DNA from: Lysobacteraceae bacterium UBA6001
GTDB taxonomy: Bacteria; Pseudomonadota; Gammaproteobacteria; Xanthomonadales; Xanthomonadaceae
Direction: 5' to 3'
NCBI GenBank assembly: GCA_002429615.1
Contig: DJAN01000315.1
Coordinates: 1-27,501, forward strand
DNA length: 27,501 nt
Of the stretch, positions 7,706 through 26,203 are shown piece by piece (within the stretch, counting starts at the first letter, position 1; each line of letters starts with the position of its first letter). The notes beneath the pieces were generated by a model. That model was given only the letters and a program-made list of their open reading frames with translations, made no database searches and had not been told where the DNA came from. Both the position numbers and the translations under genes were made by a program.

Positions 7706-7747
7706 CGTCCCCTCCCACGACTCGATTTTCTCACCGCGAAAAAGCCC

Positions 7748-7855
7748 TCAACCTTCATGCAACCGATGCCGAGGGAAACGACGCTGGGCGAGCAGAACGA
7801 AGCACGACACCGCTATACCGATCAGATAAACAAGGTGCTCCGCCTCGCCTTCCAT
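7748..7855 (-). CDS. 35-residue single-helix membrane microprotein
   Basis: The ATG at 7855-7853 shares its A with the TGA of the upstream gene (TGATG), the usual sign of coupled translation. The peptide has an acidic N-terminus (MEGEAEH), one hydrophobic helix (LVYLIGIAVSCFVLLA, residues 8-23) and a strongly basic tail (QRRFPRHRLHEG). By the positive-inside rule the tail should face the cytoplasm. It has no separate ribosome site and relies on termination-reinitiation. The gene lies between a secreted protein and a multi-pass membrane protein on the same strand, so it may be an accessory subunit of that membrane protein. It is too short for homology by eye. Confidence 0.5.
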   Translation of the reverse strand: MEGEAEHLVYLIGIAVSCFVLLAQRRFPRHRLHEG

Positions 7856-8367
7856 CACAGGCAGCCCTCGATGTAGCGGATCGCATCCGCGGTTCCAGAG
7901 TAGAAGCGTGTCACCACGCTTCCATCGGTTTCAAAACGAATCCCCGTGGCGCGGTCCGGGGAAAGCAGCGTGAGATAGTGCCCATCCGGCTCGTCATAGG
8001 CGTGGGGTGTCTGGACAATTCTTGCCCCGTAGATGCGCTTCACATCAGTCTCAAGCGTCCCCACTCCCACGCCAGACAGGGTGAGAATGCCCGGCCCGAA
8101 GACATCGATGCGCGCCAGCCGACCCTCCAGCATCATCAGGCCAACTCCCGCGGGAAGGCCGTGCCCGAGGGCGTAGTAGCACCCTTCTTCTTCCGCGACC
8201 GGGTCCGCGTGGACAAGCGGCGCACCCAGTGCACGGGCCAACGCCTTTTCGCTCATGCCGATTCGTGCCTTGTCGATCGAGGTGAACGAAAGCCGTGGCG
8301 GCGTTTTCGCCGCGAGGGATCCGGACAGCAGCGAGCACAGCACCAACAGGTACGCGAACCGCCCCAT
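7855..8367 (-). CDS. Secreted periplasmic protein of unknown function
   Basis: The 170-residue protein has a signal peptide (MGRFAYLLVLCSLLSGSLAA, residues 1-20). The mature part has two similar segments, DKARIGMSEKALARALGAPL and VGVGTLETDVKRIYG. Each looks like the helix-turn start of a BLIP/SmpA-type repeat, in which a G-M/T-S/E-x-x-L/V pattern leads into a small beta sheet. This fold assignment is inference. Two cysteines (in EGCYYA and near the C-terminus, IEGCL) could form a disulfide. GGGGG lies seven bases before the ATG. Its stop overlaps the start of the microprotein, so it heads a small membrane-linked transcription unit. Confidence 0.65.
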   Translation of the reverse strand: MGRFAYLLVLCSLLSGSLAAKTPPRLSFTSIDKARIGMSEKALARALGAPLVHADPVAEEEGCYYALGHGLPAGVGLMMLEGRLARIDVFGPGILTLSGVGVGTLETDVKRIYGARIVQTPHAYDEPDGHYLTLLSPDRATGIRFETDGSVVTRFYSGTADAIRYIEGCL

Positions 8368-8463: not shown

Positions 8464-9582
8464 CTACCCTCGCCGCCCCTGCCACCGCGCTCGAAGCCAT
8501 GCCCGCACGGGCTCATCGAAGTACCGGGACGCCAGCCACGCAAAGGCAACCATCAACGCGAAGAAGCCAAACGCAGCCGGCACCAGCACCTGTGCCGGCG
8601 CCCTGGCGGTCAGTGCCAGGTTGAGGAACAGGTAGGCGAACGGGAAGTGCGTGATGTAGATCGGATAGGAAATCCGTCCACTCCACTGGCAGAGGCGATG
8701 CCGCCAACCGCCCGCTTCCGAACCGATGCCCAGCACGAGGATCATGGGGAACAGCAGCGCCACGCAGACGAAGTCGTAGACGGCGTCAAGCTTCACTCCA
8801 TGCCAGGCGGGCAGCGACGGAAACGCGAACAGCACCGTCATGACCACCGAAAGCGGCAGAAACCCCAACCTGCCGCGCGGCAGCCGATGCCGCAGACGGT
8901 AGATCAGCAGGCCGCTGACGAACGGATAGAGCAGCCGCACCGGCGCACCCCACAGGTTGTTCCAGCCATAGCCGATGTCCAGCGAGCCGGCGTGCAGCGC
9001 GCCGGCCAGCAGTGCGAGCAGTCCCAATCCGGCGAGCACGGCCAGCGCGCGCACCGACATCCTTCGCAGCACCAGCGCGTAGGCGATGTTGGCGATGTAC
9101 TCCTGCAGCAGCGTCCACGAGGGACCGTTGAGCGGATGGGTATCTTCCCAGCGGTTCTCCAGCATCGGCGATGGCAGCACCCACAGTGCCAGCACGAACG
9201 CGATCATCACCACGCCCAGGGCGCTGGACTGTGCGCTACCTGCGAATGGATCGAACAGGTAGCTCAGCAAACCCAGCACCGCGCCCAGCACCAGCATGGG
9301 ATGCAGGCGGATCAAGCGGCTGACCAGGAACGCCCGCGTCGTCATCGCAGGCCAGCGATCGTCGTAGGCATAACCGATGACAAAACCGGACAGCGCGAAG
9401 AAGAAGTCCACCGCCAGGTAGGCATGCGGAATCAGCAGCTTGTCGTGCGCGAATGCCACGGTGATCCCCTGTATGTGGAAGATCACCACCAGCAGAGCGG
9501 CCGTGCCACGCAGGCCGTCGAGTACGTCGAAATGCACCTTTCCGTTCGAGGTGCGTGCATCCGCCAGGATCGTTTCCACCAT
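8464..9582 (-). CDS. Acyltransferase 3 family membrane protein (OafA/YrhL-like)
   Basis: The 372-residue protein shows the acyltransferase-3 signature. It starts with HFDVLDGLRGTAALLVVIFHIQ (residues 17-38), which carries the catalytic-type His36. AVDFFFALSGFVIGYAYDDRW (about 57-77) follows, then LIRLHPML and about ten transmembrane helices. These integral inner-membrane enzymes transfer acetyl or other acyl groups to sugars of lipopolysaccharide, exopolysaccharide, peptidoglycan or antibiotics. The substrate cannot be read from the sequence, and no glycan gene is adjacent. GGGGA lies four bases before the ATG. There is no C-terminal SGNH domain, so it is the short single-domain form. Confidence 0.9.
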   Translation of the reverse strand: MVETILADARTSNGKVHFDVLDGLRGTAALLVVIFHIQGITVAFAHDKLLIPHAYLAVDFFFALSGFVIGYAYDDRWPAMTTRAFLVSRLIRLHPMLVLGAVLGLLSYLFDPFAGSAQSSALGVVMIAFVLALWVLPSPMLENRWEDTHPLNGPSWTLLQEYIANIAYALVLRRMSVRALAVLAGLGLLALLAGALHAGSLDIGYGWNNLWGAPVRLLYPFVSGLLIYRLRHRLPRGRLGFLPLSVVMTVLFAFPSLPAWHGVKLDAVYDFVCVALLFPMILVLGIGSEAGGWRHRLCQWSGRISYPIYITHFPFAYLFLNLALTARAPAQVLVPAAFGFFALMVAFAWLASRYFDEPVRAWLRARWQGRRG

Positions 9583-9678
9583 CGTGTCCCCAGTGAGTCA
9601 TCGCCACCGGTCCAGCAGCGGCGGCGCGACGTTAGGGAGGTTTATGGCTAAACACAACGCACCGGAGCCATGTGGCGA

Positions 9679-10158
9679 CTACTTCGGCCTGGGCTTCGCG
9701 TACCACAGCGCGTTGACGATCACCCAGCGTCCGTCGAAATTCCCCATGTGAAAGAAGTCCACGAACCACGGCGTCTCCGCGCGCACCGCCGCCACGTTGC
9801 CGGCCACGTCCAGCACGACACACGACCGGTCCCACTTTTCCTTCGGCGTCTTCAGCGCGCCCTGCCGCGTCAGCTCCACCAGTTCTTCCTTGCTCATGCG
9901 GCGCAGGCCCAGCCGTTCGTCCGGGGTGTCCCCCAATACGCGGCGCTTGGCCAGGTCAGGATGCAACGCGCGCGCGACGCGTGCGGGATCCCCTTCCAAC
10001 TGTCCGTCGACGTAGTCAAAGCACGTCGCCTCGACCGCCGCGCGCGTGGCCGCATCGATCTCGGCCGACCCGGGCGCGGGGGCTGCGGAAGCGGAAGCGG
10101 AGGCGGAGGCGGAGGCGGAGGCGGATGCAACAACGAATACCAGGCCCATCATGGACAT
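9679..10158 (-). CDS. Secreted NTF2/lumazine-binding-like protein with Ala-Ser repeat
   Basis: The 159-residue protein has a short hydrophobic N-terminus (MSMMGLVFVV) followed by about seven Ala-Ser dipeptides encoded by a tandem hexanucleotide. The mature domain starts near residue 34 (EIDAATRAAVEATCFDYVDGQLEGDPARVARALHPDL) and ends FDGRWVIVNALWYAKPR. This matches the pattern of the NTF2-like 'putative lumazine-binding' family: an N-terminal helix with YxxG and a final sheet with W-I-V. Members are small ligand-binding or steroid-isomerase-like folds, often secreted, and usually of unknown role. GGGAG lies seven bases before the ATG at 10158, which favours this start. It is divergent from the YCII gene. 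Confidence 0.75.
   Translation of the reverse strand: MSMMGLVFVVASASASASASASASAAPAPGSAEIDAATRAAVEATCFDYVDGQLEGDPARVARALHPDLAKRRVLGDTPDERLGLRRMSKEELVELTRQGALKTPKEKWDRSCVVLDVAGNVAAVRAETPWFVDFFHMGNFDGRWVIVNALWYAKPRPK
10085..10126. repeat. Hexanucleotide tandem repeat GCGGAN x7
   Basis: Seven consecutive six-base units (GCGGAA twice, GCGGAG four times, GCGGAT once) lie inside the signal-peptide region of the NTF2-like gene and encode (Ala-Ser)n on the minus strand. Because the unit is a multiple of three, copy-number change would lengthen or shorten the leader without breaking the frame. Confidence 0.9.
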
Positions 10159-10311
10159 CGAAGAACTCCCGTCGGGGGCAAGACATGCCGTCTCGGCGAC
10201 GGACGTTATCAGACGTCGGACCCGTCATCGCGAACCGACCTCTGTCGATTCGCCGCGCTCGCATCCGTCGTCCCCATGAGCCGCCCACCCCGGACGGGCC
10301 AGGAGCACGCC

Positions 10312-10740
10312 ATGCGCGTCATGGTCTTCGCAAAATCCACCGAATCGATGCAGGACGGCACGCCCCCGACGCCGGAAGCCTTCGCCGCGATGGACCGGTT
10401 CACCGAGGAACTGGTGCAGGCCGGCATCTTCGTCGCCGCGGCCGGCCTGAAGAACGGTCCGCAGGCCAAGCGCCTCACCTTCGAAGGCGGCCACTGCAGC
10501 GTCGCCGATGGTCCGTTCGCCGAGACACGCGAGCTGGTGGCCGGCTTCTCGATCTGGCAGGTCAAGGACATCGAGGAAGCCCTTGCCTGGGCCAGGCGCT
10601 CGCCGCAACCCTTCCCGGGCCGCAGCGAGCTGGAAATCCGCCCGTTCTATGAAGCCGAGGACCTGGCCGAGTTCCTCAGCCCCGAAGAACTCGCCGCGCC
10701 GCCGCATGCCGGGTCGCGCGGAAAGCTCGGGGTGGCCTGA
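10312..10740 (+). CDS. YCII-related (DGPF) domain protein
   Basis: The 142-residue protein begins MRVMVFAKSTES and contains the hallmark DGPFAETRELVAGF (about residues 67-80), followed by the IWQVKDIEEALAWARR helix. Together these define the YCII/DGPF family of small ferredoxin-like dimeric proteins. Members often sit next to ECF sigma factors or act as peroxidase-like enzymes. No sigma factor is adjacent here, so its role is open. The start at 10312 is chosen because AGGAG is seven bases upstream. A longer frame further upstream is open but has no such signal and would overlap the divergent gene. Confidence 0.85.
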   Translation: MRVMVFAKSTESMQDGTPPTPEAFAAMDRFTEELVQAGIFVAAAGLKNGPQAKRLTFEGGHCSVADGPFAETRELVAGFSIWQVKDIEEALAWARRSPQPFPGRSELEIRPFYEAEDLAEFLSPEELAAPPHAGSRGKLGVA

Positions 10741-10746
10741 GGCCGC

Positions 10747-11346
10747 TCAGGGCGACGGGCGGATGCTCAGCGCGACCGCTTCGGTGTAGGAGATCCGCAG
10801 CAGGTCGCCCTTCTTCACGTTGGGGAGCTTGGCCCGCAGGTCCTCGCGTTCCACCGCGATGAGCTGGGTGTTGCCGCGCGGCCCCTTGAGCGCGATGGTG
10901 TTGGCCACCGGATCCACCGCCACCACCTCGGTAGTGACGCTGACCGTGCGCGACAACGATCCCCCCGGCCGCCCGCCCGCCGGCGCGACCGTCCCGCCCT
11001 GCGCCGAGGTCACGCCCACCTGCCCGCTGCCCGCCGGCTGCAGTTCGAGGGCGATGGCCTCCTCGTAGTCCAGCGCCACCTTGTCGCCCACCTTGAGCTG
11101 GTCGAAGTTGCGCACGGCAGGGCTGGCGATGAAATCCAGACTCGCCCCGTCGTTGCCGCTGATCGTCAGCGCCCGGCTGGCCTTGTCCACCGCGGTGATG
11201 GTGCCCTGCAGGGTGACCTGCGAGGTGCCCGCGGTATACGGGCCGGCCGGCGCGGGCGGCGCCTGCGAGGAAGTCGGCGTGCTGCTGCATCCGGCCGCCA
11301 GCGCGACGACCAGGGCCAGGGACGATGACGGGAAAAGTGTGCGCAT
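10747..11346 (-). CDS. Lipoprotein with two similar beta domains
   Basis: The 199-residue protein has a lipoprotein signal peptide (MRTLFPSSSLALVVALAAGC, lipobox LAAGC, lipid Cys at residue 20) and a Pro/Ser linker. Two related segments follow. The first is VTLQGTITAVDKASRALTISG with VGDKVALDYEEAIALEL. The second is VSVTTEVVAVDPVANTIALKG with KGDLLRISYTEAVALSI. The internal duplication suggests two OB-like or similar small beta barrels. The function is unknown. The start at 11346 is set by GGAG six bases upstream and by the signal peptide. It is convergent with the YCII gene, with only 6 bp between stops. Confidence 0.75.
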   Translation of the reverse strand: MRTLFPSSSLALVVALAAGCSSTPTSSQAPPAPAGPYTAGTSQVTLQGTITAVDKASRALTISGNDGASLDFIASPAVRNFDQLKVGDKVALDYEEAIALELQPAGSGQVGVTSAQGGTVAPAGGRPGGSLSRTVSVTTEVVAVDPVANTIALKGPRGNTQLIAVEREDLRAKLPNVKKGDLLRISYTEAVALSIRPSP

Positions 11347-11400
11347 GGCGATCTCCAGACGACCAGGACGGTCTACAGGCACCATTGCAGCAACTGCCCA

Positions 11401-11418
11401 GCGCCGACGCGTCGGCGC
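11401..11418. repeat. 18-bp perfect palindrome between the XRE gene and the lipoprotein gene
   Basis: GCGCCGACGCGTCGGCGC reads the same on both strands. It lies 55 bases upstream of the lipoprotein start and 59 bases after the XRE stop. It could be an operator for the lipoprotein gene or a stable transcript hairpin. There is no T run to make it a terminator. Confidence 0.7.
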
Positions 11419-11476
11419 AACTACTGGGAAAGCCTCAGAAAATATACTGGCCGCAGGCGTCCGCACGCGCGGCCAT

Positions 11477-11875
11477 TCAGCCTTGCGCATCCTCCAGGAA
11501 ACGCGCCAGCGCGGCCCGCACCCTGGGCGTCATCCGCACGCCGTGCCCGTTCATGCCCTGGCGCACCTCGTACAGCAGCGCCGCCTCACCTTCGGTGAGC
11601 CGCTCGCAGGCGTACATCTGGTCGCAGATGCGCAGCAGTTCCGGCATGTATTCCCCCATCGCCAGCCGGAAGAATTCGACTTCATCCACCTCCAGCGCAC
11701 GCGCCATCTGCGGGATGCGCGCCAGCGGCATCTTGGTCTGCCCCTGCTTGATCATCGACAACACGCTGGACCGGGGAAAACCGGCTTCAGCGGAGATCTC
11801 CAGCTGGGTCTTGCTGCTTCTTTCGATGGCCGCCGCGATGAAGGCAGCGACCTTGCTTGTGCCGTTTTCGGACAT
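11477..11875 (-). CDS. XRE-type helix-turn-helix regulator
   Basis: The 132-residue protein has an N-terminal helix-turn-helix. TQLEISAEAGFPRSSVLSMI (residues 23-42) matches the XRE pattern of helix 2, turn and recognition helix 3, followed by GQTKMPLARIPQMARALEVD typical of phage-repressor-like folds. The C-terminal half is helical (PELLRICDQMYACERLTEGEA) and may dimerise or bind a ligand. GGGGA lies four bases before the ATG at 11875. Longer upstream starts lack this and would run through the divergent promoter. The regulator is divergent from a small unknown gene, and palindromes in that gap are candidate operators, so it may control itself and its neighbour. Confidence 0.82.
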   Translation of the reverse strand: MSENGTSKVAAFIAAAIERSSKTQLEISAEAGFPRSSVLSMIKQGQTKMPLARIPQMARALEVDEVEFFRLAMGEYMPELLRICDQMYACERLTEGEAALLYEVRQGMNGHGVRMTPRVRAALARFLEDAQG

Positions 11876-11950
11876 CGATTCCCCGCGTACAGCGCCCCCG
11901 AAAACTATACCATCGACGCACGTCACAACATGTGCCACGGCGCTTGATGC

Positions 11951-11999
11951 CCACCGGTGGCTGATGCACCATGCCGCGGCACCATTGTTAGCGCTCTCA
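11951..11999. promoter_or_regulatory. Cluster of palindromes in the XRE divergent gap
   Basis: Three dyads lie within 49 bases: CCACCGGTGG (11951-11960), TGCCGCGGCA (11972-11981) and TGTTAGCGCTCTCA (11986-11999). The last matches 12 of 14 positions of the LacI/GalR-type consensus TGTTAGCGCTAACA. They lie between the regulator start and the downstream ATG at 12005. Operator function is inferred. Confidence 0.35.
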
Positions 12000-12004
12000 A
12001 TCCC

Positions 12005-12301
12005 ATGGCCCCACCCGATCCCCTCTCCACCAACATCCTGGGCGACTTCGCCCGTGCGCACGGCTTCACCCATGGCGAGGAAGTCAGCTGGCTGACCGCC
12101 GTGGCGCTGCTGGAAGACCTGCGCATCGACCGCCATGTCGACCTGGGGGAGCGCGAGAGCTATCTGGGCCAGCACCCCCAGCTCGGGACGATCGCGCTGT
12201 TGATGTCCAGCATCTCGGCCTGCTGGGTGTTCGCCTATGAGGAGCTAGGCCCGCGCCTGCAGCCCTACCGGGACGCGGCGGATGAGCGTTTTAAGCAGTG
12301 A
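12005..12301 (+). CDS. Small protein of unknown function
   Basis: The frame encodes 98 residues from ATG 12005, or 114 from ATG 11957. It looks globular and mostly helical: NILGDFARAHGFTHGEEVSWLTAVALLEDL, then a hydrophobic stretch TIALLMSSISACWVFAYEEL that could be a buried or membrane helix. I do not recognise the family. Neither start has a good ribosome site. I prefer 12005 because the longer version would place the palindrome cluster inside the gene. It is divergent from the XRE regulator, so a regulatory link is plausible but unproven. Confidence 0.5.
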   Translation: MAPPDPLSTNILGDFARAHGFTHGEEVSWLTAVALLEDLRIDRHVDLGERESYLGQHPQLGTIALLMSSISACWVFAYEELGPRLQPYRDAADERFKQ

Positions 12302-12309
12302 TGGATTTA

Positions 12310-12346
12310 TCAGTCAGTGCTGAATAAAATTTCAGTCAGCGCTGAA
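12310..12346. promoter_or_regulatory. Twin palindromic sites, 22-bp spacing
   Basis: TCAGTCAGTGCTGAA (12310-12324) and TCAGTCAGCGCTGAA (12332-12346) are near-identical direct copies, each with a dyad core: TCAGTGCTGA imperfect, TCAGCGCTGA perfect. The centre-to-centre distance is 22 bp, two helical turns. They lie just upstream of the Cys-rich ORF and read like a paired operator. Confidence 0.5.
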
Positions 12347-12359
12347 GCACCGGATATTG

Positions 12360-12617
12360 ATGAAACGCACTTGTGAGTTGTGCCGCAACTTCTGTTCCCA
12401 ATTGCTGGATCTGCGGCTGCGCGAAAGCGACCAGCTGCTCGGAAGGATCGGCCCCTGCTGCCTGCAGAAGGCCGCGCAGCGACTGGACCTGCTGGCCTCC
12501 CGCCACCCCGAGCGCGTGGCTGGCCCGATGTGCATGGCCGAATTCCGCGAACTGACCCGCGCCGTGCGCCCCCGCTCCCACCAGCCGTTCGGCCGCCCCC
12601 GCCGCGAGACCCCCTGA
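12360..12617 (+). CDS. Cys-rich small protein of unknown function
   Basis: The frame encodes 85 residues beginning MKRTCELCRNFC, a CxxCxxxC cluster. Further cysteines at PCC (about 33-34) and MC (about 59) could bind a metal with it. The middle is helical (QLLDLRLRESDQLLGRIG) and the C-terminus is basic and Pro/Arg-rich. The ribosome site is weak, and an antisense frame also runs here, so coding status is moderate. The twin palindromes 14 bases upstream suggest a regulated promoter. It is convergent with the c-di-GMP enzyme gene, 9 bp away. I do not recognise the family. Confidence 0.45.
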   Translation: MKRTCELCRNFCSQLLDLRLRESDQLLGRIGPCCLQKAAQRLDLLASRHPERVAGPMCMAEFRELTRAVRPRSHQPFGRPRRETP

Positions 12618-12626
12618 GCCCCGGGC

Positions 12627-14708
12627 TCAGCCCACCGCCTGCAGCGGCGCCTCGTCCGTGGGCGTGCGCGCGATCCGCTCCGCTTCCATCGGCCGGCCCA
12701 GCAGGTAGCCCTGATAGATGTCGCAACCCAGCCGGCGCAGGTGTTCGCGCTGGCCGGCGGTCTCCACGCCTTCGGCGACGACACGCAGATTGAGGGTCTT
12801 CCCCAGCGCGACGATGGAAGCCACGATCGCCGCATCCTCCGGGTTCGACTCCAGGTCGCGGATGAAGGCCCGATCGATCTTGAGCTCGCTCGCGGGCAGG
12901 CGCTTGAGGTACAGCAGGCTGGAGTAGCCGGTGCCGAAGTCGTCGATGGCGATATGCACGCCCATCAGGGTCAGCTGGTCGAGGATGTCCAGGCTGGTCT
13001 CGGCATCGCGCATCGCCGTGGTCTCGGTGATCTCCAGCGTCAGGCAGGAAGGATCCAGGCGATGGCGCGCCAGCACGTCTCGCACCATCGTCACCAGTGT
13101 CGGCGAGGAAAACTGCAGCGGCGACAGGTTGACCGCGACGCTGGGCACGCCCCGGCCGCCATCCTGCCAGGCACGCATCTGCCGGCACGCCTCCTCCAGC
13201 ACCCACTCCCCGAGCGCGATGATCAGCCCGCTGCGCTCGGCCAGCGGAATGAACGCCGCCGGCGACAGCAGGCCAAGCTCCGGATGCTGCCAGCGCAGCA
13301 GCGCCTCCACACCCGCCAGGCGGTAGTCCGGCGCGGCGAATTTCGGCTGGTAATGCAGCACCAGTTCGTTGCGGTCGATGGCGCGGCGCAGGTCGTTGAG
13401 CACCTTGAGCTGCTTGTGCGCGCTGACATTCATCGAGGGCGCGAAGAACGTGTAGCCGTTCCGGCCGTTGTCCTTGGTGTGATACATGGCCGCGTCGGCG
13501 TGTGCCATCAGGTCGCGCTCGCGGGTGCCGTCGGACGGATACACCGCGATGCCGATGCTGGCGGTGACCTGGAGTTCGACTCCCTGCACCTGGATCGGCG
13601 ACACCAGCGCATCGATGATGCGCTGGGCAACGACCGCGGCGTCCTCCGGGTCGGTGGTCGGCACGACCAGCACGAACTCATCGCCGCCCAGGCGCGACAG
13701 CGTGTCCTGGCTGCGCAGCAGGGCGCGCACGCGCGTGGCCACCTCGGCCAGCAACGCATCGCCGGCCTGGTGCCCGAAGGCGTCGTTGATGCGCTTGAAG
13801 CCATCCAGGTCGAGGAACATCACCGCGAAGCGCTCCTGCTTGCGCCGCGCCTTCTCGATCGCCTGCTCGATGCGGTCCTGCAGCAGCACGCGGTTGGGCA
13901 GGCGGGTCAGCGGGTCGTGCAGCGCGGCCTGCACCAGTTCCTCGTTGGCCTGCGCCAGCGAGTGCGCCAGGTGATGGGTGCGCAGGTGCATCTGCCGGTC
14001 CAGCACGGAAACGATCAGCGCGATGCCCATGATCGCCACGGTGGTCACCACCACCAGGATGGCCAACCACTCGGCGGGCACGCCGCCGTCCCGCGCCGCG
14101 CCGCACCAGCTGCCTTCGGGGAACTGCGCCGCCGCCATGCCGGTGTAGTGCATGCCGACGATCGCCACGCCCATCACCAGCGCGGCGAGCAGGCGCAGGC
14201 CGTGGCGACGATGGCCGCGGCGCAGCTGGAAGGCGATCCACAGCGCGGCGCCGGAGGCGACGATGGCGATGAGGATCGACAGCGTGAACCACACCGGGTC
14301 GTAGTCGATGCCCGGCATCATCCGCAGCGCGCCCATGCCGGTGTAGTGCATCAGCGCGATGCCGGCGCCCATCAGCACGGCGCCCAGCGACAGCAGCCTG
14401 CGTGGCAGTTCCGGGCGCGACACCAGCCACAGCGCGAAGGCCGAGGACGCGAGCGCGGCGATCATCGAGTACACGGTGATGACCGGGTCGTAGCCCAGCG
14501 GAATCGGCAGGTTGAAGGCGAGCATGCCGACGAAATGCATCGACCACACGCCCAGGCCCATCGCCAGCGTGCCGCCGGCCAACCACCAGCGCGCGGCGGT
14601 GCCCTGCGTGGTGGCCACGCGGCCGGCCATGTCCAGCGCGGTATAGGACGCGAGGATCGCCACCAGCAGGGAAAAGAACACCAGGGTTTCGTTGTAGGTT
14701 CCGGACAT
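12627..14708 (-). CDS. MHYT-GGDEF-EAL membrane c-di-GMP enzyme
   Basis: The 693-residue protein starts with an MHYT sensor of seven predicted helices carrying three motif copies (MHFVGM at 57, MHYTGM at 120 and 186). MHYT domains are thought to bind copper and sense O2, CO or NO. A GGDEF domain follows, with an intact GGDEF active site (341-345) and an intact RxxD inhibitory site (RSQD, 332-335). The EAL domain is also intact by eye: EALLRWQHPE (468-477) and DDFGTGYSSL (589-598). Both c-di-GMP synthesis and hydrolysis are therefore possible. The start at 14708 is chosen because the MHYT helices begin there; the open frame upstream is Pro/Arg-rich and unlike the family. It is divergent from the roadblock-GTPase operon, 237 bp away. 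Confidence 0.93.
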   Translation of the reverse strand: MSGTYNETLVFFSLLVAILASYTALDMAGRVATTQGTAARWWLAGGTLAMGLGVWSMHFVGMLAFNLPIPLGYDPVITVYSMIAALASSAFALWLVSRPELPRRLLSLGAVLMGAGIALMHYTGMGALRMMPGIDYDPVWFTLSILIAIVASGAALWIAFQLRRGHRRHGLRLLAALVMGVAIVGMHYTGMAAAQFPEGSWCGAARDGGVPAEWLAILVVVTTVAIMGIALIVSVLDRQMHLRTHHLAHSLAQANEELVQAALHDPLTRLPNRVLLQDRIEQAIEKARRKQERFAVMFLDLDGFKRINDAFGHQAGDALLAEVATRVRALLRSQDTLSRLGGDEFVLVVPTTDPEDAAVVAQRIIDALVSPIQVQGVELQVTASIGIAVYPSDGTRERDLMAHADAAMYHTKDNGRNGYTFFAPSMNVSAHKQLKVLNDLRRAIDRNELVLHYQPKFAAPDYRLAGVEALLRWQHPELGLLSPAAFIPLAERSGLIIALGEWVLEEACRQMRAWQDGGRGVPSVAVNLSPLQFSSPTLVTMVRDVLARHRLDPSCLTLEITETTAMRDAETSLDILDQLTLMGVHIAIDDFGTGYSSLLYLKRLPASELKIDRAFIRDLESNPEDAAIVASIVALGKTLNLRVVAEGVETAGQREHLRRLGCDIYQGYLLGRPMEAERIARTPTDEAPLQAVG

Positions 14709-14901
14709 GCGCACGACCGCAGCCCGTGGGGAGGGCTGTCGAGGCGGATATCGGCCGCCCGCAGCGGAACTTGATCCGCCGGGGCGACATGCCCGGTCGT
14801 CAAGATGCCGACATTGTCCCGCCATCGCCGCCAAAGAAACGGCATTCAGCAGTAATTCCGAATTCTCGCCAGCGATGCCTCATACTCGCGCCGTTTTTTC
14901 G

Positions 14902-14923
14902 CCTCACCGCCAGAAGAGTGAGG
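14902..14923 (+). promoter_or_regulatory. Hairpin in the leader of the roadblock operon
   Basis: CCTCAC (14902-14907) pairs with GTGAGG (14918-14923), ten bases apart, a short distance before the AGGGAG ribosome site. It may influence translation of the first roadblock gene. The stem is short, so the call is tentative. Confidence 0.3.
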
Positions 14924-14945
14924 GCTATCACAGGGAGTTTGTGTT

Positions 14946-15380
14946 GTGCAGCGTTCGACTGTCGAAAAAGTAGTCAATGCCATGGGGGACGGCGAACGTC
15001 CCGCGATGGACGTGCCCGCGATCAGTGCCGAGTTCGAGCGTACCGTCGCGCGCACGCCGGGCATCGCGATGCTGCTGCTCGCCACCGCCGATGGTCGCGC
15101 GGTCGCCGATTGGTCCACCCTGCAGGCCGATCCGCGCCGCCTCGCGGCGATGACCAATTCCCTGCTGACCCTCAGCGAGACCGTGGTACGCGAACTCGGC
15201 CTGGCCTCGGCGGACAACGCCACCATCGCCACCCGCCAGGGCAACATGGTGCTGATCCGCCTCGACCACGCCCGCCCGCTGACCTTGGCCGCGATGGGCA
15301 CGCCCGACACCAACACCGGCACGCTGCTGTTCGCCGCGCGTGACTGCGCCGCGCGGCTGACCCAGTTGCTCGGCGCCTGA
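14946..15380 (+). CDS. Roadblock/LC7 domain protein (MglB/CvnB-like)
   Basis: The 144-residue protein has a roadblock/LC7 core from about residue 25. It runs [28 protein letters not shown], a central helix [21 protein letters not shown], then [40 protein letters not shown]. This order is typical of bacterial regulators that pair with Ras-like GTPases, as GAP-like or scaffold partners (MglB with MglA, CvnB with CvnD). The GTG at 14946 is chosen with AGGGAG about nine bases upstream; ATG 14982 is an alternative. It heads a four-gene run ending in a small GTPase. The first 20 residues are probably disordered. Confidence 0.8.
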
Positions 15381-15402
15381 TCTCTCCGTTTGTCAGCTGC
15401 CT

Positions 15403-15419
15403 CCCGCGATTCGCGCGGG
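15403..15419 (+). repeat. Intercistronic hairpin between the two roadblock genes
   Basis: CCCGCG (15403-15408) and CGCGGG (15414-15419) form a GC-rich stem with a five-base loop in the 76-bp gap. No T run follows, so it is more likely an mRNA stability or attenuation element than a terminator. Confidence 0.35.
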
Positions 15420-15456
15420 CGGGTGGCGCCTCCCTACCCCACAGAAAGGCAGCACA

Positions 15457-15816
15457 ATGGCAAGGTTCGAATTGAATGGTTTGCAGGAAATCGCCGGCTT
15501 CGTCGGCGCCGCGCTGGTCGACGGCGACAGCGGCATGGCGATGGCCACCATCGGTGGCAACCAGGTTGACCTGGACGTCGCCGCGGCGGGCAACAGCGAT
15601 GTGGTGCGCGCCAAGCGCCGCGTCGCCAGCCAGCTCTCGCTGGACGACACCATCGAGGACATCCTGATCACCCTCGGCAAGCAGTACCACCTGATCCGCC
15701 CGCTGGAGTCGAACGCGACGCTGTTCCTGTACGTCGTGCTCGACCGCGCCCGCGCCAACCTGGCGATGGCGCGCCACGAGCTGAAGGCGTTCGAGAAGAC
15801 GCTGGATTTCAGCTGA
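15457..15816 (+). CDS. Second roadblock-like protein
   Basis: The 119-residue protein has the alpha-beta-beta-alpha-beta outline of a roadblock fold. It opens with helix [12 protein letters not shown], then strands [17 protein letters not shown], and contains [23 protein letters not shown], strand [10 protein letters not shown] and C-terminal helix [17 protein letters not shown]. Sequence identity to the first roadblock protein is low, so the two may form a heterodimer or bind different partners. AAAGG lies eight bases before the ATG. It is the second gene of the GTPase run, 76 bp after the first. The family call is by pattern and not certain. Confidence 0.65.
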
Positions 15817-15898
15817 TCCCGATGCGGCATGGCGACCGGGCCCGCGGCGCGCACGCGCCCCGGGCCGGCGACTTGCGCCAAGACCACGCGACCCTCTC

Positions 15899-16864
15899 GT
15901 GAACACTCCGCTTACCTCGCGCCTGCGGGTTGCCATCGCCGGGCTCGACCTGGTGTCCGCCACCCGCTTGAAGGTGGCGTGCTCGCTGTTGATGGCCGAC
16001 CGCCTGGAAATCCAGCTCGACGACTGGGGCAGCGCGCCCGCCGCCGCACTCGTGGCCCATGACGGCCACGACGAAGGGCTGCGCGCGATCGCCGCCGCAC
16101 GCGCCGACGGCACCCCCTGGCTGGCGATCAGCCGCCAACCCGGCGCGGGCGACCTCGCCCATGGCGCCAGCGTGCGCGATATCGCCGATGCATTGCGCAC
16201 GCTGCTGCTGTCGCCGCGCGCCACGCCCGGCGTGCTGGCCACGCCGGCACCGCCACTGCCGCCGTTCCTCGACGCCATCCGGCTCGACCGCACCGGTGCG
16301 GACCATGTCCTGCTGGAGAACGGCCTGCTGCGGCTGGTTGTCGACCGGCCGAACGGACGCCTGCACCTGCTGCGACGCGCCACGCTGGCGCAGGTGCTCG
16401 CCGCGGCCAACGTCGCCTACTGGCGCGTGACCCCACTGGCCGCGGACGAATGGCAGACAGCACACGCGCCGGAGGTCGTCGATGCGTGGCCGCTGGAAGT
16501 GGTGTGGTGGCGCGCGGCAAAACATATCGACCCGGCCCTGTTGGGCACCGACATCGACATGGTGGGATTGTCCGCGTGGCCCGACCTGGAGCCTGACTCG
16601 ACCGATCCGCAATGGCTGCCCGTGCTGGCGCACCTGCAGCGCCGCGACTGGACGCCGACCGCGCTGGCCAGCGCGACCGGCATTCCGCATGCTGTCGTCG
16701 AACAGGTGGCCGCGCTGGTCCGGCTCAGCGGACTGGCCCGTCGTGCGGGCAGCGCACCCGCCACCCGCCCTGGCCGCCAGGCCTTCGCCCCGGAACAGAT
16801 GCGTTCCTTCCTGCGCATTGCCAAGCGCTTCGGACTGAGATTGATGGGAGTCCAGCATGGATAG
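15899..16864 (+). CDS. Unknown protein with probable pseudo-receiver N-terminus and winged-helix C-terminus
   Basis: The 321-residue protein starts at GTG 15899. Residues 9-105 look like a degenerate receiver or Rossmann-like domain: RVAIAGLDLVSATRLKVACSL, later PWLAISRQPG, then DIADALRTLLL. The acidic pocket and phospho-Asp of a true receiver are not evident. The middle (about 120-220) is unassigned, with LLENGLLRLVVDRPNGRLHLL. Residues 235-285 (LAHLQRRDWTPTALASATGI then VVEQVAALVRLSGLARR) resemble a winged helix with a wing. In conservons the equivalent slot is the small winged-helix protein CvnC (DUF742), so this may be an enlarged functional counterpart. That is inference from position. 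The gene overlaps the GTPase by 8 bp and is certainly co-expressed with it. Confidence 0.6.
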   Translation: MNTPLTSRLRVAIAGLDLVSATRLKVACSLLMADRLEIQLDDWGSAPAAALVAHDGHDEGLRAIAAARADGTPWLAISRQPGAGDLAHGASVRDIADALRTLLLSPRATPGVLATPAPPLPPFLDAIRLDRTGADHVLLENGLLRLVVDRPNGRLHLLRRATLAQVLAAANVAYWRVTPLAADEWQTAHAPEVVDAWPLEVVWWRAAKHIDPALLGTDIDMVGLSAWPDLEPDSTDPQWLPVLAHLQRRDWTPTALASATGIPHAVVEQVAALVRLSGLARRAGSAPATRPGRQAFAPEQMRSFLRIAKRFGLRLMGVQHG

Positions 16865-17411
16865 ATACGGCAACAAGCTGGTGTTCGTCGGCAACATGGG
16901 CGCCGGCAAGTCCACCGCCATCCGCGCGATCTCCGATGTCGAGCCGGTCAGCACCGACATGCCGATGAGCGAGGCCAGCACCGGCGGCGGCAAGACCACC
17001 ACCACCGTCGCGCTGGACTACAGCACGGTGGAGCTGGAAGGCGGTGAGCTGCTGCACCTGTATGGCGTGCCCGGCCAGCGCTACCTGGATTTCATGTGGC
17101 CGATGGTCTGCGAAGGTGCCATCGGCATCATCGCGCTGGTCAAGGCCGGGGATGTGGAACCGCTGGAAGACATCGTGGCGCTGCTGCGCGAATTCGCACG
17201 CCTGGCACCGGACGCCAGTTTCGTGGTCGGGGTCAGCCATGCCGACCTGACGCCTGGGTTCGAGCTGGTGCACTTCCGCGATGCGCTGGCACGCCAGGGC
17301 TTCAACCTGCCGGTACTCAAGGTCGATGCACGCGAACCGTTGCAGGTCGATTTCCTGATCAAGGCGCTGCTGTCCTGCCGTCATGCCGGCAGCCAGCTGC
17401 TGGAAGCTTGA
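16857..17411 (+). CDS. Ras-like small GTPase (MglA/CvnD-type, COG2229-like)
   Basis: The 184-residue protein has a P-loop (GNMGAGKST, residues 12-20) and a Thr-rich switch I (GKTTTTVALDY, 45-55). Its G3-type motif is YGVPGQ (69-74), with the usual Asp replaced but the PGQ glutamine kept. A G4 segment SHAD (127-130) stands where most Ras-like proteins have NKxD. These features match the prokaryotic small GTPases that work with roadblock proteins. GGGAG lies six bases before the ATG. Overlap with the upstream gene (8 bp) and the two roadblock genes before it place it as the output switch of the operon. It likely binds GTP, but the altered G4 needs testing. The gene is convergent with ispH, with a GC-rich hairpin between. 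Confidence 0.85.
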   Translation: MDRYGNKLVFVGNMGAGKSTAIRAISDVEPVSTDMPMSEASTGGGKTTTTVALDYSTVELEGGELLHLYGVPGQRYLDFMWPMVCEGAIGIIALVKAGDVEPLEDIVALLREFARLAPDASFVVGVSHADLTPGFELVHFRDALARQGFNLPVLKVDAREPLQVDFLIKALLSCRHAGSQLLEA

Positions 17412-17419
17412 TGCCAGAC

Positions 17420-17439
17420 GCCCCGGCTGCGGCCGGGGC
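17420..17439. terminator. GC-rich hairpin between convergent GTPase and ispH genes
   Basis: GCCCCGG (17420-17426) and CCGGGGC (17433-17439) form a seven-bp stem in the 33-bp gap between two convergent stops. There is no T run, so intrinsic termination is uncertain, but the position suits a shared transcript-end element. Confidence 0.4.
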
Positions 17440-17444
17440 CGCGC

Positions 17445-18395
17445 TCAGCTGACCAGCTGCAGCCGCAGTTCCTTCGGCAGCGCGAACACCATCGATTCCG
17501 GCTCGCCGGCCAGCTCGGACACATTGCCGGCACCGAGCTCGCGCAGTCGCGCGATCACGCCATCCACCAGCACCTGCGGCGCCGACGCGCCGGCGCTCAG
17601 GCCGATGCGCTGCTTGCCGGCCACCCAGTTCGGGTCGATCTCGTCGGCGTCGTCGATGAGGTACGACTCCACGCCTTCGCGCCGCGCCAGCTCGCTGAGG
17701 CGGTTGGAGTTGGAGCTGTTTGGCGAGCCGACCACCAGCACCAGGTCGCATTCGCGTGCCAGGTCGCGCACGGCGTCCTGGCGGTTCTGCGTGGCGTAGC
17801 AGATATCGTCGTTCTTCGGACCCTGCATCGCCGGATAGCGCGCGCGCAGCGCCTCGATGATGCCGCGCGTGTCATCCACCGACAGCGTGGTCTGGGTGGT
17901 ATAGGCGAGGTTCTGCGGCTGGGCGATCTCCAGCGTGGCCACGTCGTCGATGTCCTCGACGAGATAGATGCGCCCCTGCCCCGCCTCGCGGCTCCACTGC
18001 CCCATCGTGCCCTCGACCTCGGGATGGCCGGCATGGCCGATCAGCACGACATCGCGGCCGGCACGGCAGTGCCGCGCGACTTCCAGGTGGACCTTGGTCA
18101 CCAGCGGACAGGTCGCGTCGAACACCTTCAGTCCGCGCCGGTCGGCCTCACGCCGCACCGCCTGCGATACGCCGTGGGCGCTGAAGATCACCGTGGCGCC
18201 ATCCGGCACCTCGTCCAGCTCCTCGACGAACACCGCGCCACGCTGCTTCAGGTCATCGACCACGAAACGGTTGTGCACGACTTCGTGGCGCACGTAGATC
18301 GGCGCGCCCAGGGTTTCAATGGCGCGCTTGACGATCTCGATCGCGCGGTCGACACCGGCGCAGAAACCACGGGGATTGGCGAGCAGGACTTCCAT
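17445..18395 (-). CDS. ispH: 4-hydroxy-3-methylbut-2-enyl diphosphate reductase
   Basis: The 316-residue protein is full length for IspH (LytB). It begins [20 protein letters not shown], with Cys12, Cys96 (DATCPLVTK) and Cys199 ([11 protein letters not shown]) as the three iron-sulfur ligands. Substrate-site histidines lie at HEVVHN (41), SAHG (74) and [12 protein letters not shown] (124). The enzyme performs the last step of the MEP isoprenoid pathway, reducing HMBPP to IPP and DMAPP. The start at 18395 is chosen because it begins at the conserved N-terminus. A longer open frame overlaps lspA and does not look like the family. lspA lies 7 bp upstream, so the two are co-transcribed. Confidence 0.98.
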
Positions 18396-18402
18396 GCGTC
18401 GA

Positions 18403-18927
18403 TTATCCCGCTTTTTGCTTCGACTTGCCGTCCATGATGCCGAACAGGGCGATGCCCACGGCGCCGACGACGATCGCCGAATCGGCGACATTGAACGCCG
18501 GCCAGATGTGGTCGCCGACGTACCAGAGGATGAAATCGACCACGTGGCCGTGGATCTGGCGGTCGATGACGTTGCCGATGGCCCCGCCGATGACCAGCGC
18601 GAACGGCAGCGCCGAGCGCCAGTCGGCGCGGGCGGTGCGCGAGAGCCAGAACGCCATCAGCGCGCTGATGCCCACCGCCAGCGCGGTGAACAGCCAGATC
18701 TGCCAGCCGCCGGCGTCGCTGAGGAAGCTGAACGCGGCGCCGGTGTTGTAGGTGCGGCACCAGTCCCAGAACCCGGGGATGACCGGGATGCGGGTGCAGC
18801 GGCCGGTCAGCGGATCGATGTCCGGCAGGCTGTTCAGCACCCAGGCCTTGCTCAGCTGGTCCAGGCCGATCACCACCGCCGACAGCAGCAGCCAGATCAA
18901 CGCGTTGGGTTTGGGACGAGGGGTCAT
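18403..18927 (-). CDS. lspA: Lipoprotein signal peptidase II
   Basis: The 174-residue inner-membrane protein has four helices and the family motifs. [10 protein letters not shown] lies near residue 21, [13 protein letters not shown] near 58, and the two catalytic aspartates are in GNVIDR (Asp122) and FNVADSAI (Asp149). It cleaves the signal peptide of prolipoproteins just before the lipid-modified Cys. The order murJ-ribF-ileS-lspA-ispH is the standard one in gammaproteobacteria. A 108-bp gap with a REP-like repeat separates it from ileS, the widest gap in this block. Confidence 0.98.
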
Positions 18928-18985
18928 GCGCAGGAGTGCCCTTGGAATTCGGTGGTGAAGCCGGCCCCGGCGCTGCGCGCCAGGG

Positions 18986-19013
18986 CGTCGGGGCTGAAGC
19001 CCCTCCTACAGGG
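18986..19013. repeat. REP-like intergenic element
   Basis: GGGGCTGAAGCCCC (18990-19003) forms a 5-bp stem with a TGAA loop, followed by TCCTACAGG. The complementary form, CCTGTAGGAGGGGCTTC, matches the short 'GTAGGAGCGGCTTCAGCC' type of repeat common in xanthomonad and pseudomonad intergenic regions. It sits in the ileS-lspA gap. It may act as a transcript boundary or a target of a RAYT transposase, though no RAYT gene is in the window. Confidence 0.65.
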
Positions 19014-19035
19014 GATCAGCGGATGCAACGGCCGG

Positions 19036-21870
19036 TCAGAACCAGCGGCGGTCCTCGCCCGGCCCTTCGACATTGGTGGCACAGCGGCCACACAGTTCCG
19101 GGTGGCGCGGATCGACGCCGACGTCGGCGCGGTGGTGCCAGCAGCGCACGCACTTGGTCTTGGTGGTCGGCGCGGCGCTGACGTAGATATCGTCGGTGCT
19201 GGCCGGGGTCACGCTGACGTCGCCGCTGATGAAGAAGAAACGCAGCTCATCGGCCAGCGGCTGCCAGCGCGCGGCGCTGACCGCATCGGCGGCGACGGTG
19301 ATCTCCGCTTCCAGCGCCGCGCCGATCGCGCCGTTGGCGCGCATCGGCTCCAGCACCTTGGCCACCTGCTCGCGCAGCGCCAGCAGCTGGTCGAAGTCGG
19401 CCGCGTTGAGTGGCGCGTCCACCGGCAGCGGCGCCAGGCCGTCGTACCAGGTCGCGAACAGCACGTTCTCCTCGCGCGCGCCCGGCAGGTAACCCCAAAG
19501 CTCCTCGGCGGTGAAGCTCAGCACCGGCGCGATCCAGCGCACGAACGCCTCGGCGATATGGAACATCGCCGTCTGCGCCGAACGCCGGCCACGCGAGTCC
19601 TCGCCCATCGTGTAGAGGCGGTCCTTGGTCACGTCCAGGTACAGCGAACCGAGGTCCACGCTGCAGAAGTTCAGCAGCGCCTGCACGATGGCGGCGAAGT
19701 CGTAGCGCTCGTAGGCGGCCTTGATCTGCTCCTGCAGTTCAAAGGCGCGATGCACGATCCAGCGATCCAGCGCGACCATCTCGGCCAGCGGCACGCTGTG
19801 CGCGGCGGGGTCGAAGCCGTGCAGGTTGCCGAGCAGGAAGCGCGCGGTGTTGCGCAGGCGGCGGTAGGCGTCGGCGTTGCGCTTGAGGATCTCCTGCGAC
19901 AGCGACATCTCGTTGCTGTAGTCGGCCGAGGCGATCCACAGGCGCAGGATGTCCGCGCCCAGCGTCTTCATGATGTCCTGCGGCTCGATGCCGTTGCCCA
20001 GCGACTTGGACATCTTGCGGCCGTGCTCGTCCACGGTGAAACCGTGGGTGAGGCACTGCTTGTAAGGCGCCTGGCGCTCCAGCGCCACGCCGGTGAGCAG
20101 CGAGGACTGGAACCAGCCGCGATGCTGGTCCGAACCTTCCAGGTAGAGGTCGGCCGGCCACGGCAGGCCGCGCTCGCGCAGCACGGCTTCATGGGTGACG
20201 CCCGAGTCGAACCAGACGTCGAGGATGTCGGTGATCTTGTCGTACTGCGGCGCTTCGTCGCCAAGCAGTTCAGCGGCGTCCAGCGAATACCACACGTCCA
20301 CGCCGCCCTGCTCCACGCGCTCGGCGACCTGGCGCATCAACTCGGTGCTGCGCGGATGCGGCTCGCCGGTTTCGCGGTGCACGAACAGCGCGATCGGCAC
20401 GCCCCAGGTACGCTGGCGCGAAATGGTCCAGTCCGGGCGACCTTCGACCATGCCGGCGATGCGCGCCTGGCCCCAGCCCGGGTACCAGGTCACCTGCTCG
20501 ATCGCCTTAAGCGCATCGCTGCGCAGGTTCGCCTGGTCCATCGAGATGAACCACTGCGGGGTGGCACGGAACGCGATCGGCGTCTTGTGGCGCCAGCAGT
20601 GCGGGTAGCTGTGGGTCAGCTTGAACGTCGCCAGCAGCGCGCCGTTGGCGCGCAGACCTTCGATGATGACGTCGTTGGCCTTCCAGATGTGCAGGCCGGC
20701 CAGCACGATGTCGCCGAACGGCGGCGTCGACGGCAGGTACACGCCGCGGCCATCGACCGGATTGATCTGCGCGGCGCTGTAGCGATCCAGCAGGCCGTAC
20801 TGCTTGGAGACCTGGTAATCCTCCTGGCCATGGCCCGGCGCGGTATGCACGGCGCCGGTGCCGTCCTCGGCGGAGACGTGGTCGCCCAGCAGCAGCGGGA
20901 TGTCGCGCTCGGCATAGAACGGATGCGCCAGCAGCAGGCCATCAAGCGCCTGGCCGGCCACGCGGCCGTGCACCACCGGCTCGCCGGCCACGCCATAGCG
21001 CGACAGCGCCTTGCCGACCAGCGCATCGGCCAGCACCAGCCAGCGCGGCTGGCCGTTGTGCGCCGGGCCTTCGACCAGCGCGTATTCGAGTTCCGGGCCG
21101 ATGCTCACCGCCAGCGAGGCCGGCAGCGTCCACGGCGTGGTGGTCCAGATCGGCACCGCGACCTCGACGCCCGCCGGCAGCTGCACGCCGAAGCGCGCGG
21201 CCAGCGCCTGCGCGTCGCGCGCGGCATAGGCCACGTCCACCGCCGGCGATTCCTTGTCGGCGTACTCGATCTCCGCCTCGGCCAGCGCCGAGCCGCAATC
21301 GAAGCACCAGTGCACCGGCTTCACGCCGCGGCTCAGGTGGCCGTTGTCGACGATCTTCGCCAGCGCGCGGATCTCGTTGGCCTCGAAGTGGAAATCCAGC
21401 GTCTTGTACGGGTTGTCCCAATCGCCGATCACGCCCAGGCGCTTGAAGTCGCGGCGCTGCAGGTCGATCTGCTCGCGCGCGTACTCACGGCACTTCTGCC
21501 GGAACTCGACCGCGTCCAGCTTCACCCCGACCTTGCCGAACTTCTTCTCGATCGCGATCTCGATCGGCAGGCCATGGCAATCCCAGCCCGGGATGTACGG
21601 CGCGTCGAAGCCCGCCAGGTGCTTGGACTTGACGATGATGTCCTTGAGGATCTTGTTGACCGCATGGCCGAGGTGGATCTGGCCGTTGGCATACGGCGGG
21701 CCGTCGTGCAGCACGAAGGTCGGGCGGCCGGCGGCGTGCGCGCGCAGCTTGGCGTACAGGCCCTCTTCCTCCCAGCGCGCCAGGATCGACGGCTCGCGCT
21801 TGGGCAGATCGCCGCGCATCGGGAATTCCGTTGCCGGCAGTTGGAGGGTGGCTTTGTAATCCTGGCTCAC
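19036..21870 (-). CDS. ileS: Isoleucyl-tRNA synthetase
   Basis: The 944-residue class I synthetase carries HLGH (residues 66-69, the HIGH signature), the editing-domain region ([11 protein letters not shown]), and KMSKS (619-623). A C-terminal zinc site [13 protein letters not shown]...ELCGRC is typical of the bacterial type. It charges tRNA-Ile and edits valine. The start is a GTG at 21870 that overlaps the ribF stop by four bases (GTGA), which links its translation to ribF. Length and motifs are complete and no frame break is seen. Confidence 0.98.
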
Positions 21871-22814: not shown

Positions 22815-22891
22815 TCCGTTCGCGAATCCGGCCCGTGAAAGGCCGCCAAAGTGTTCATGGGGATTGTGAAGTATAGCCGGGCGGCGCCTTA

Positions 22892-24499: not shown

Positions 24500-24523
24500 C
24501 GGGCATCCCCCTTGACAACTGAC

Positions 24524-24552
24524 TTGACGTAGATGTTTGAGACGATCATAAT
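24524..24552 (+). promoter_or_regulatory. Sigma70-type promoter of rpsT
   Basis: TTGACG (24524-24529) and CATAAT (24547-24552) are 17 bases apart, the optimal spacing. A second TTGACA copy lies 12 bases upstream (24512-24517). The start of the rpsT transcript would fall near 24559, leaving a leader of about 40 bases. Confidence 0.7.
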
Positions 24553-24600
24553 TTCGCGCTTGCTTTTTCCACTACACCGATTTTTCAGGAAACCACCACC

Positions 24601-24870: not shown

Positions 24871-24910
24871 TCCGGCAGTCGCGCCGGGGGCCCAGCCCTC
24901 GGCGGCATGC

Positions 24911-25039: not shown

Positions 25040-26173
<1,134 letters not shown>

Positions 26174-26203
26174 TTACGGACGCGCAGCGCGCGCCCTAGA
26201 AAC

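Follow-up and report, generated by a model that had tools for sequence, protein, structure and literature searches.

What kind of system is formed by four co-directional genes that encode two roadblock-like proteins, a third protein and a Ras-like GTPase, and does the c-di-GMP enzyme encoded divergently beside them belong to it? The question is raised by positions 14946-17411 of the window, i.e., of the whole stretch of 27,501 nucleotides that was analysed. An earlier note had described this operon together with an intact MHYT-GGDEF-EAL gene 237 bp away, and all of its coordinates hold. The features discussed below are as follows.

12627..14708, minus strand, MHYT-GGDEF-EAL c-di-GMP enzyme, 693 aa; a neighbour, outside the component count
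14709..14945, no strand, divergent intergenic region, 237 bp
14946..15380, plus strand, Robl1, roadblock/LC7 protein, 144 aa, GTG start; Robl_LC7 31.6 bits (cut-off 23)
15457..15816, plus strand, Robl2, second roadblock-like protein, 119 aa; Robl_LC7 20.7 bits, slightly below the cut-off
15899..16864, plus strand, third protein, 321 aa; predicted receiver-like domain, middle domain, winged helix and basic C-terminal helix (structure models, alignment A1)
15914..16228, plus strand, predicted receiver-like (pseudo-receiver) domain, third protein residues 6-110
16568..16588, plus strand, L..WPDL motif, third protein residues 224-230
16613..16726, plus strand, predicted winged-helix helices, third protein residues 239-276 (structure models, fold comparison, weak MarR_2 match)
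16790..16834, plus strand, predicted basic C-terminal helix (KRFG motif), third protein residues 298-312
16857..17411, plus strand, MglA-family GTPase, 184 aa (motifs, Pfam, alignment, trees)
about 12620..17436, no strand, block of MHYT gene plus operon in genomes G000 and G002; in G001, of the same genus, 80 bp stand instead (blastn, junction read)

The order of the four genes is not due to chance, because 18 of the 19 named loci with a GTPase relative keep it (Robl1, Robl2, third protein, GTPase); at one of the 19, L047, the GTPase alone is visible, and at another, L031, the third gene is matched in two frames. The GTPase gene overlaps the third gene by 8 bp, and its product matches the Pfam family ATP_bind_1 with 38 bits (cut-off 27) and carries the motifs G1 GNMGAGKS, G3 GVPGQ, G4 SHAD with D130, and G5 DAR. 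In alignment A2, whose 29 rows are the window and 28 of 65 GTPase loci, T50, D157 and R159 are invariant and T49, which we take to be equivalent to the Arg finger place at G2, is kept in at least 90% of rows. Regarding G3, all 16 A-type rows, the window included, read GVPGQ, the second set of the source genome reads GTPGQ, and the other 12 rows differ at that residue. In a tree calculated without an intact Neisseria reference, 23 gammaproteobacterial rows fall on one side (96/89) and 10 conservon rows form a separate group (100/98), while the long-branched L122 groups with two Deinococcus rows; a further GTPase tree comprised 67 rows after removal of identical rows and of odd lengths.

Taken together, these genes make up a complete Group 3 MglA-family module, a known kind, because Wuichet and Sogaard-Andersen (PMC4316618) reported the Group 3 MglA systems of beta- and gamma-proteobacteria in 2014, with Stenotrophomonas and Xanthomonas named among them. 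They based the MglA groups on tree and taxonomy and used motifs to describe them. The earlier suggestion that such a module had not been described in xanthomonads is therefore not supported.

We assign a probability of about 0.6 to the following reading of the module, which starts from how the four genes are ordered and conserved and from the MglA-type motifs of the GTPase, all directly observed, and from the modelled architecture of the third protein. Robl1 would be the MglB-like GAP; it has a D49-G50 pair, in which G50 is invariant and D49, like T47, is kept in at least 90% of the 37 rows of alignment A3 (36 of 38 Robl1 loci plus the window). Robl2, which is the best-conserved part of the system, with 26 invariant residues in the 27 rows of alignment A4 (26 of 52 Robl2 loci plus the window) drawn from several system types, may be a second roadblock and anchor the switch to a shared partner. 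The third protein would be an input adaptor, whose front domain receives the signal and whose module of WP motif, winged helix and basic tail would act directly on the GTPase as a GEF, a GAP partner or an effector. The most likely output would be a surface behaviour exerted through type IV pili; pilT-family genes occur in all 43 genomes with a match to the third-protein profile, which is compatible with pilus control but is no proof of it.

The third protein is where new evidence can be offered, on its receiver-like front, WP motif, winged helix and basic tail. The winged helix that had been proposed for this 321-residue protein is borne out by structure models, fold comparison and a weak MarR_2 match (residues 236-286, E 0.0022, below the cut-off). 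Foldseek returned no match at E <=0.001 for either structure model, and the middle domain (residues about 120-215) obtained no assignment. Alignment A1 has 47 rows, i.e., 37 of 41 distinct third-protein loci, nine further proteins and the window, with the two-frame third gene left out. In it, A308, R310, F311 and G312 of the C-terminal helix are invariant, and residues 297-316 carry a mean net charge of +2.64. At the end of strand 3 of the receiver-like domain, which in the model lies at residue 54, no conserved phosphoacceptor Asp was found in the 47 rows: Asp stands at positions 53, 54, 55 and 56 in 0, 9, 6 and 19 rows, respectively, Glu occupies 56 in 13 rows, and in the window the only Asp among these positions is at 55. 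The front domain thus lacks this mark of a response regulator; in this clade it is a receiver fold by model, and since the conserved phosphoacceptor is absent, it probably takes up its signal through protein contact and not through phosphorylation.

L224, W227 and P228 are invariant in the 15 third proteins of alignment A6, an invariance that is partly built in because 11 of the 15 rows were picked for the presence of the W-P motif. A profile of the third protein matches 43 of 274 genomes of the class, and the W and P, mostly as WPN, are kept in all 28 further loci that it found (one per genome, from 60 profile-matched places outside the family). A narrow motif search that allows no N after WP was positive at 12 of 26 paralog loci and at 4 of these 28. 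A GTPase lies close by in 26 of the 28, and the two loci without a GTPase match, L143 and L144, each have a contig end close by to one side. With L134 excluded from the domain reading, three loci have a BLUF light sensor as the front domain, and in one genome the WP module and the GTPase are fused; a BLUF-type protein is present in Agarilytica. The A-type and B-type modules are clearly homologous (hhalign 96.8-97.3%, against at most 0.7% for reversed controls); the BLUF protein tail of L122 gives a moderate match to the B-type profile (57.6%) and hardly any to the A-type profile (1.3%).

These observations suggest an adaptor role for the third protein, with an input that can be exchanged and direct action on the GTPase. 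A wider claim is put forward tentatively, as one that may well fail: that it founds a family of GTPase adaptors, in which a module of WP motif, winged helix and basic tail joins interchangeable receiver, pseudo-receiver or BLUF inputs to an MglA-type GTPase on which it acts directly, GATOR1-like and not as a transcription factor. If true, a single protein would connect light, or the signal of a receiver, with a Ras-like switch of bacteria, and the BLUF-type module would be a potential light-driven handle on that switch. The conserved module, the swappable sensors and the one GTPase fusion make a direct test possible. A search that left most subscription journals outside found no literature on BLUF with roadblock and GTPase, or on the role of the Group 3 third protein.

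The strongest competitor, which we nevertheless hold to be unlikely, is the suggestion made in PMC4316618, by which the third protein is a DNA-binding factor, similar to a response regulator, that is set by the GTPase and the roadblocks to switch transcription. Its REC-like plus winged-helix layout and its basic C-terminal tail favor this, as does the match (53.6%) between the A-type module profile and MarR helices from the same genome, and mutants of the conservon Cvn8 alter transcription according to PMC13343842. The charge of the recognition helix (p 0.018) is weak evidence, as the rows are related and the nine control helices were cut by eye. A specific homology to CvnC (DUF742) was tried and rejected: hhalign gave 0.6-1.3% with single sequences and 7-24% with profiles, and neither the third protein nor any of 38 C-terminal pieces gave a DUF742 match, even at E up to 1. 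Because the MarR comparisons, the one just given and that of CvnC with MarR (77.8%), score higher than CvnC against the third protein, only a generic winged-helix likeness to CvnC is left.

As for the divergent neighbour, its MHYT, GGDEF and EAL Pfam matches are all far above the cut-offs, and its motifs are MHFV/MHYT/MHYT, RSQD-5-GGDEF, EAL and DDFGTGYS. That GTPase module and enzyme belong to a single pathway, in which c-di-GMP and the state of the GTPase act on the same output, is in our judgment very improbable. The two are divergently arranged over 237 bp, both the module and the enzyme (91% identical) are conserved in G002, and they behave as a single block, gained or lost as one because 80 bp replace both in G001. 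In addition, a GGDEF-EAL match begins 1.2 kb after Robl2 of L114, a B-like set in another genus. These points count in its favor, but the linkage in relatives that the earlier note had set as a test fails across the family. A GTPase ortholog is found in 57 of 395 family genomes, and 43 of these 57 have a relative of the enzyme (E <=1e-125), which adjoins the operon in only two, G000 and G002, both of the small genus to which the window belongs; it lies about 11 kb away in G161, and on a different contig or at least 140 kb apart in the other 40. Flanks could be read for 29 A-type loci, and only at L031 does a GGDEF/EAL gene directly adjoin the operon. Stenotrophomonas rhizophila (compare L044) is an example of a species with the operon but no MHYT gene beside it. 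Moreover, the genome has 21 GGDEF domains, so a GGDEF neighbour would arise by chance in 1-7% of cases, for one to six operon sites and an assumed ~3,400 genes. A scan for sigma-70-type promoters and Rfam had no match in the divergent intergenic region, and sigma-70, terminator and Rfam searches at the operon found nothing. The linkage rules out the enzyme as an obligate partner; it is probably a genus-level neighbour and not a fixed part of the GTPase system, a result that spares others the pursuit of a c-di-GMP link apparently local to one genus.

Least probable of all is a metabolic role, in which Group 3 modules would adjust enzymes of central carbon metabolism and for which the evidence is adjacency throughout: five of seven B-like loci, in two genera, read icd, third protein, GTPase, Robl1, (Robl2), aceK, and the second set of the source genome lies between icd and aceK, but the other two B-like loci, L114 and L115, show neither icd nor aceK over the stretch read, and the window set lies elsewhere, with neighbours that vary by genus.

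The preferred reading, that of a Group 3 module with an input adaptor, can finally be set against the closest known systems, among which the GATOR1/SEA subunits of eukaryotes are also listed. The earlier note had seen kinship with MglA/MglB and with conservons but no CvnA, and rightly so, there being no kinase gene between the MHYT gene and ispH. The conservons (CvnA-B-C-D) share with the window a roadblock, a small third protein and a GTPase in the same order, and both conservon GTPases inspected have the G5 DAR as well; they differ by their CvnA histidine kinase, which the window operon lacks, and their GTPases and the window-type ones form separate groups in the tree. The Myxococcus MglA/MglB/RomR system (Group 1) likewise combines a Ras-like GTPase, roadblock partner(s) and a receiver-type protein (PMC4316618), whereas the window has no Arg at the finger position, and its receiver-like protein has a winged helix and is encoded inside the operon. 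A Rup system of Group 1, with its GGDEF-EAL output, is excluded by YGVPGQ, which is not a Ras-like DxxG G3, and by the two roadblocks. From the Group 3 description the window departs in its G3 (GVPGQ here, GTPGQ there), in the receiver of this clade, which is without a conserved phosphoacceptor, and in the MHYT neighbour, absent from the published account. With it the window shares an MglA-family GTPase of less than 240 aa (184 aa) coupled to two MglB-like roadblocks, a third protein with a REC-like N-terminus and a winged-helix C-terminus, a Thr and no Arg finger at G2, an atypical G4, a G5 DAR, and a GTPase placed by the tree in the beta/gamma-proteobacterial clade, separate from Group 2.

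The genes and coordinates of the earlier note proved correct when the window was re-read, and the genes concerned are the following.

14946-15380, plus strand: Robl1, whose profile meets six chains in the PDB, including CvnB5
15457-15816, plus strand: Robl2, with a Pfam match below threshold (20.7 of 23 bits) and a weak profile match to one Roadblock/LC7 chain in the PDB (7yh1, E 0.013)
15899-16864, plus strand: the third protein, 321 residues
16857-17411, plus strand: the GTPase, its gene overlapping that of the third protein by 8 bp
12627-14708, minus strand: the MHYT-GGDEF-EAL protein, 693 residues, divergent from the operon by 237 bp, with all enzyme motifs present in a motif read
17445-18395, convergent, downstream of the operon: ispH
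convergent, downstream of the operon together with ispH: lspA

The window also carries chaperone-usher genes (usher, 1745-4168; PapD-type chaperone, 4119-4898) and a tRNA (303-375, minus strand).

The genes for Robl1, Robl2, the third protein and the GTPase are one unit. A scan of named genomes found GTPase relatives at 19 loci, and all four genes occur in the same order at 18 of them, spanning Stenotrophomonas, Pseudoxanthomonas, Luteimonas and Rhodanobacteraceae among others; the exception is L047, where the GTPase alone was seen, and in L031 (S. panacihumi) the third gene is matched in two frames. A GTPase ortholog (E ≤1e-48) is present in 57 of 395 family genomes and in 8 of 54 genera, and a tree of 67 GTPases places all 41 rows of the window-operon kind (A-type) on one side of a branch with support 100/97. 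The operon is flanked by arginase and SPOR/biotin-ligase genes in Stenotrophomonas and genus g18, and by S9 peptidase, DUF819, CstA or CorA genes in several other loci, so that no neighbour outside the operon is constant in the loci read.

Some individual loci deserve mention. A record labelled Bacillus subtilis SK7B5 (L042) carries Stenotrophomonas-like DNA, its GTPase grouping with Stenotrophomonas in the tree, and is either mislabelled or contaminated. In S. panacihumi (L064, ~14765-17080), where the third gene is matched in two frames, the GTPase gene and ispH are separated by an ORF of 771 aa that by eye resembles a sulfatase. In L100 (G078, 7259-8261) the set is reduced, Robl1 running straight into the GTPase, with no Robl2 or third-protein match across the 16-kb stretch, and L116 (G031, 7479-7820) holds an orphan Robl2, 75% identical to that of the window, with no GTPase match within the surrounding 15 kb.

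The earlier note had proposed that the MHYT enzyme and the GTPase are functionally linked, and had made this depend on the two genes remaining linked in relatives; by that criterion the link is not supported. Among the 57 family genomes with a GTPase ortholog plus G001, a further genome of the window genus, a relative of the enzyme (E ≤1e-125) occurs in 43 of 58, and it lies beside the operon in only two of the 43, namely the window genome (G000) and its congener G002. In G161 (L095) the distance is ~11 kb, and in the other 40 genomes the gene is on a different contig or at least 140 kb away. The flanks of 36 loci, 29 A-type and 7 of the kind of the genome's second set (B-like), were also surveyed: a GGDEF/EAL gene immediately adjoins the operon in L031 only among the A-type loci, three more have one at 2.5-11 kb, and B-like L114 and L113 have a match at 1.2 and 3.8 kb, respectively. 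The L114 match (G017, 9255-11745), starting past Robl2, is the sole such case besides the window genus. With 21 GGDEF domains in the window genome, and assuming ~3,400 genes, the probability of finding a GGDEF gene next to an operon site by chance is 1-7% when one to six sites are considered. One result runs the opposite way. In G001, which is without an enzyme relative at E ≤1e-125, 80 bp take the place of the enzyme gene and the operon, flanked on one side by the counterpart of window positions 10311-12619 and on the other by that of 17437-26704, and thus both were gained or lost as one block. What this demonstrates is common inheritance across three genomes and not a common function. A c-di-GMP partnership of the GTPase module is not supported.

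The worthwhile part of the result concerns the third protein, which we read as an adaptor with a swappable input that acts directly on the GTPase. Its C-terminal module consists of a WP motif, a winged helix and a basic tail, and L224, W227 and P228 are invariant in an alignment of 15 rows from various system types, 11 of them selected through the W-P motif. A profile built from this alignment matches 43 of the 274 genomes of the class, spread over 37 of its 222 genera. Of 60 places listed outside the family, 28 loci, one per genome, were read; WP, mostly WPN, stands at the expected position in all 28, and a GTPase lies inside the locus in 26. The front domain varies: many non-A-type fronts have, by eye, an Asp close to the end of strand 3, and in three loci, with roadblock and GTPase genes alongside, the WP winged-helix module is preceded by a BLUF domain.

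3255-3983, L122: Agarilytica plasmid, between Robl2 and the GTPase, BLUF, then ISWPDF, then a similar tail
1510-2247, L147: genus g215, BLUF at 84.1 bits, one of two such cases among the 28 loci
1066-1815, L160: genus g215, BLUF at 75.4 bits, the other case

In G534 (L139, 1261-2796) a natural third protein-GTPase fusion is found, a single 511-residue frame in which a front domain, WPDF and the winged-helix region are joined to a GTPase that carries GTPGQ; no roadblock match was found within this 3.7-kb locus. Elsewhere, L136 (G679) has the WP module a second time, in an adjoining frame of 266 aa, and a record of a Neisseria gonorrhoeae chromosome that is classed as a plasmid (L117) contains a Group 3-like locus whose third gene and GTPase look frame-disrupted.

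The window genome has a second Group 3-like set on contig C136 (L061, 721-8514), between monomeric icd and aceK. Its third protein has 317 residues, and its gene order (third protein, GTPase, Robl1, Robl2) is permuted relative to the window. The two third proteins are homologous (hhalign 82%; C-terminal module 96.8-97.3%). This position recurs in five of the seven B-like loci read (G000, G001, G002, G031, without Robl2, and G218), from two genera, and neither gene is in the stretches read of L114 and L115; a tie to isocitrate dehydrogenase control is possible.

Regarding the output, pilT-family genes occur in 232 of 274 class genomes, including all 43 with the module against 189 of 231 others (Fisher 0.0004; 0.024 under a crude size guess), an association confounded by kinship and genome size; the pilT family also gives hits in E. 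coli. For Snodgrassella, with an mglA placed in Group 3, orphan mglB mutations are reported to change soft-agar spreading and gut colonisation (PMC11112851). Taken together, these make control of type IV pili or of the surface our best guess, with transcription as its main rival.

As for the action on the GTPase, MfpC, at the equivalent place in a Mycobacterium conservon, is an exchange factor according to the introduction of a preprint (PMC13015309), one figure legend of which swaps the two roles. An exchange factor is accordingly a reasonable first guess for the third protein, and no more; hhalign profile comparison did not establish homology with MfpC/CvnC. In a tree with actinobacterial conservon GTPases, 23 gammaproteobacterial rows group together (96/89) apart from 10 conservon rows (100/98), and the Agarilytica GTPase sits on a long branch outside the gammaproteobacterial group.

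The closest known systems are the Group 3 MglA systems, described in 2014 from beta- and gamma-proteobacteria, with Stenotrophomonas and Xanthomonas named (Wuichet and Sogaard-Andersen, PMC4316618). In that description an MglA homolog is combined with one or two MglB proteins and with a further conserved, uncharacterised protein that is receiver-like at its N-terminus and has a winged helix at its C-terminus. Across 29 aligned GTPases, G12, G15, G17 and K18 of G1, T50, PGQ of G3, D157 and R159 are invariant; the window differs in that G3 reads GVPGQ instead of GTPGQ, as in all 16 A-type rows, at a place also variable in the other rows. The window set fits the Group 3 description, and its operon is a real, complete module of an already known kind.
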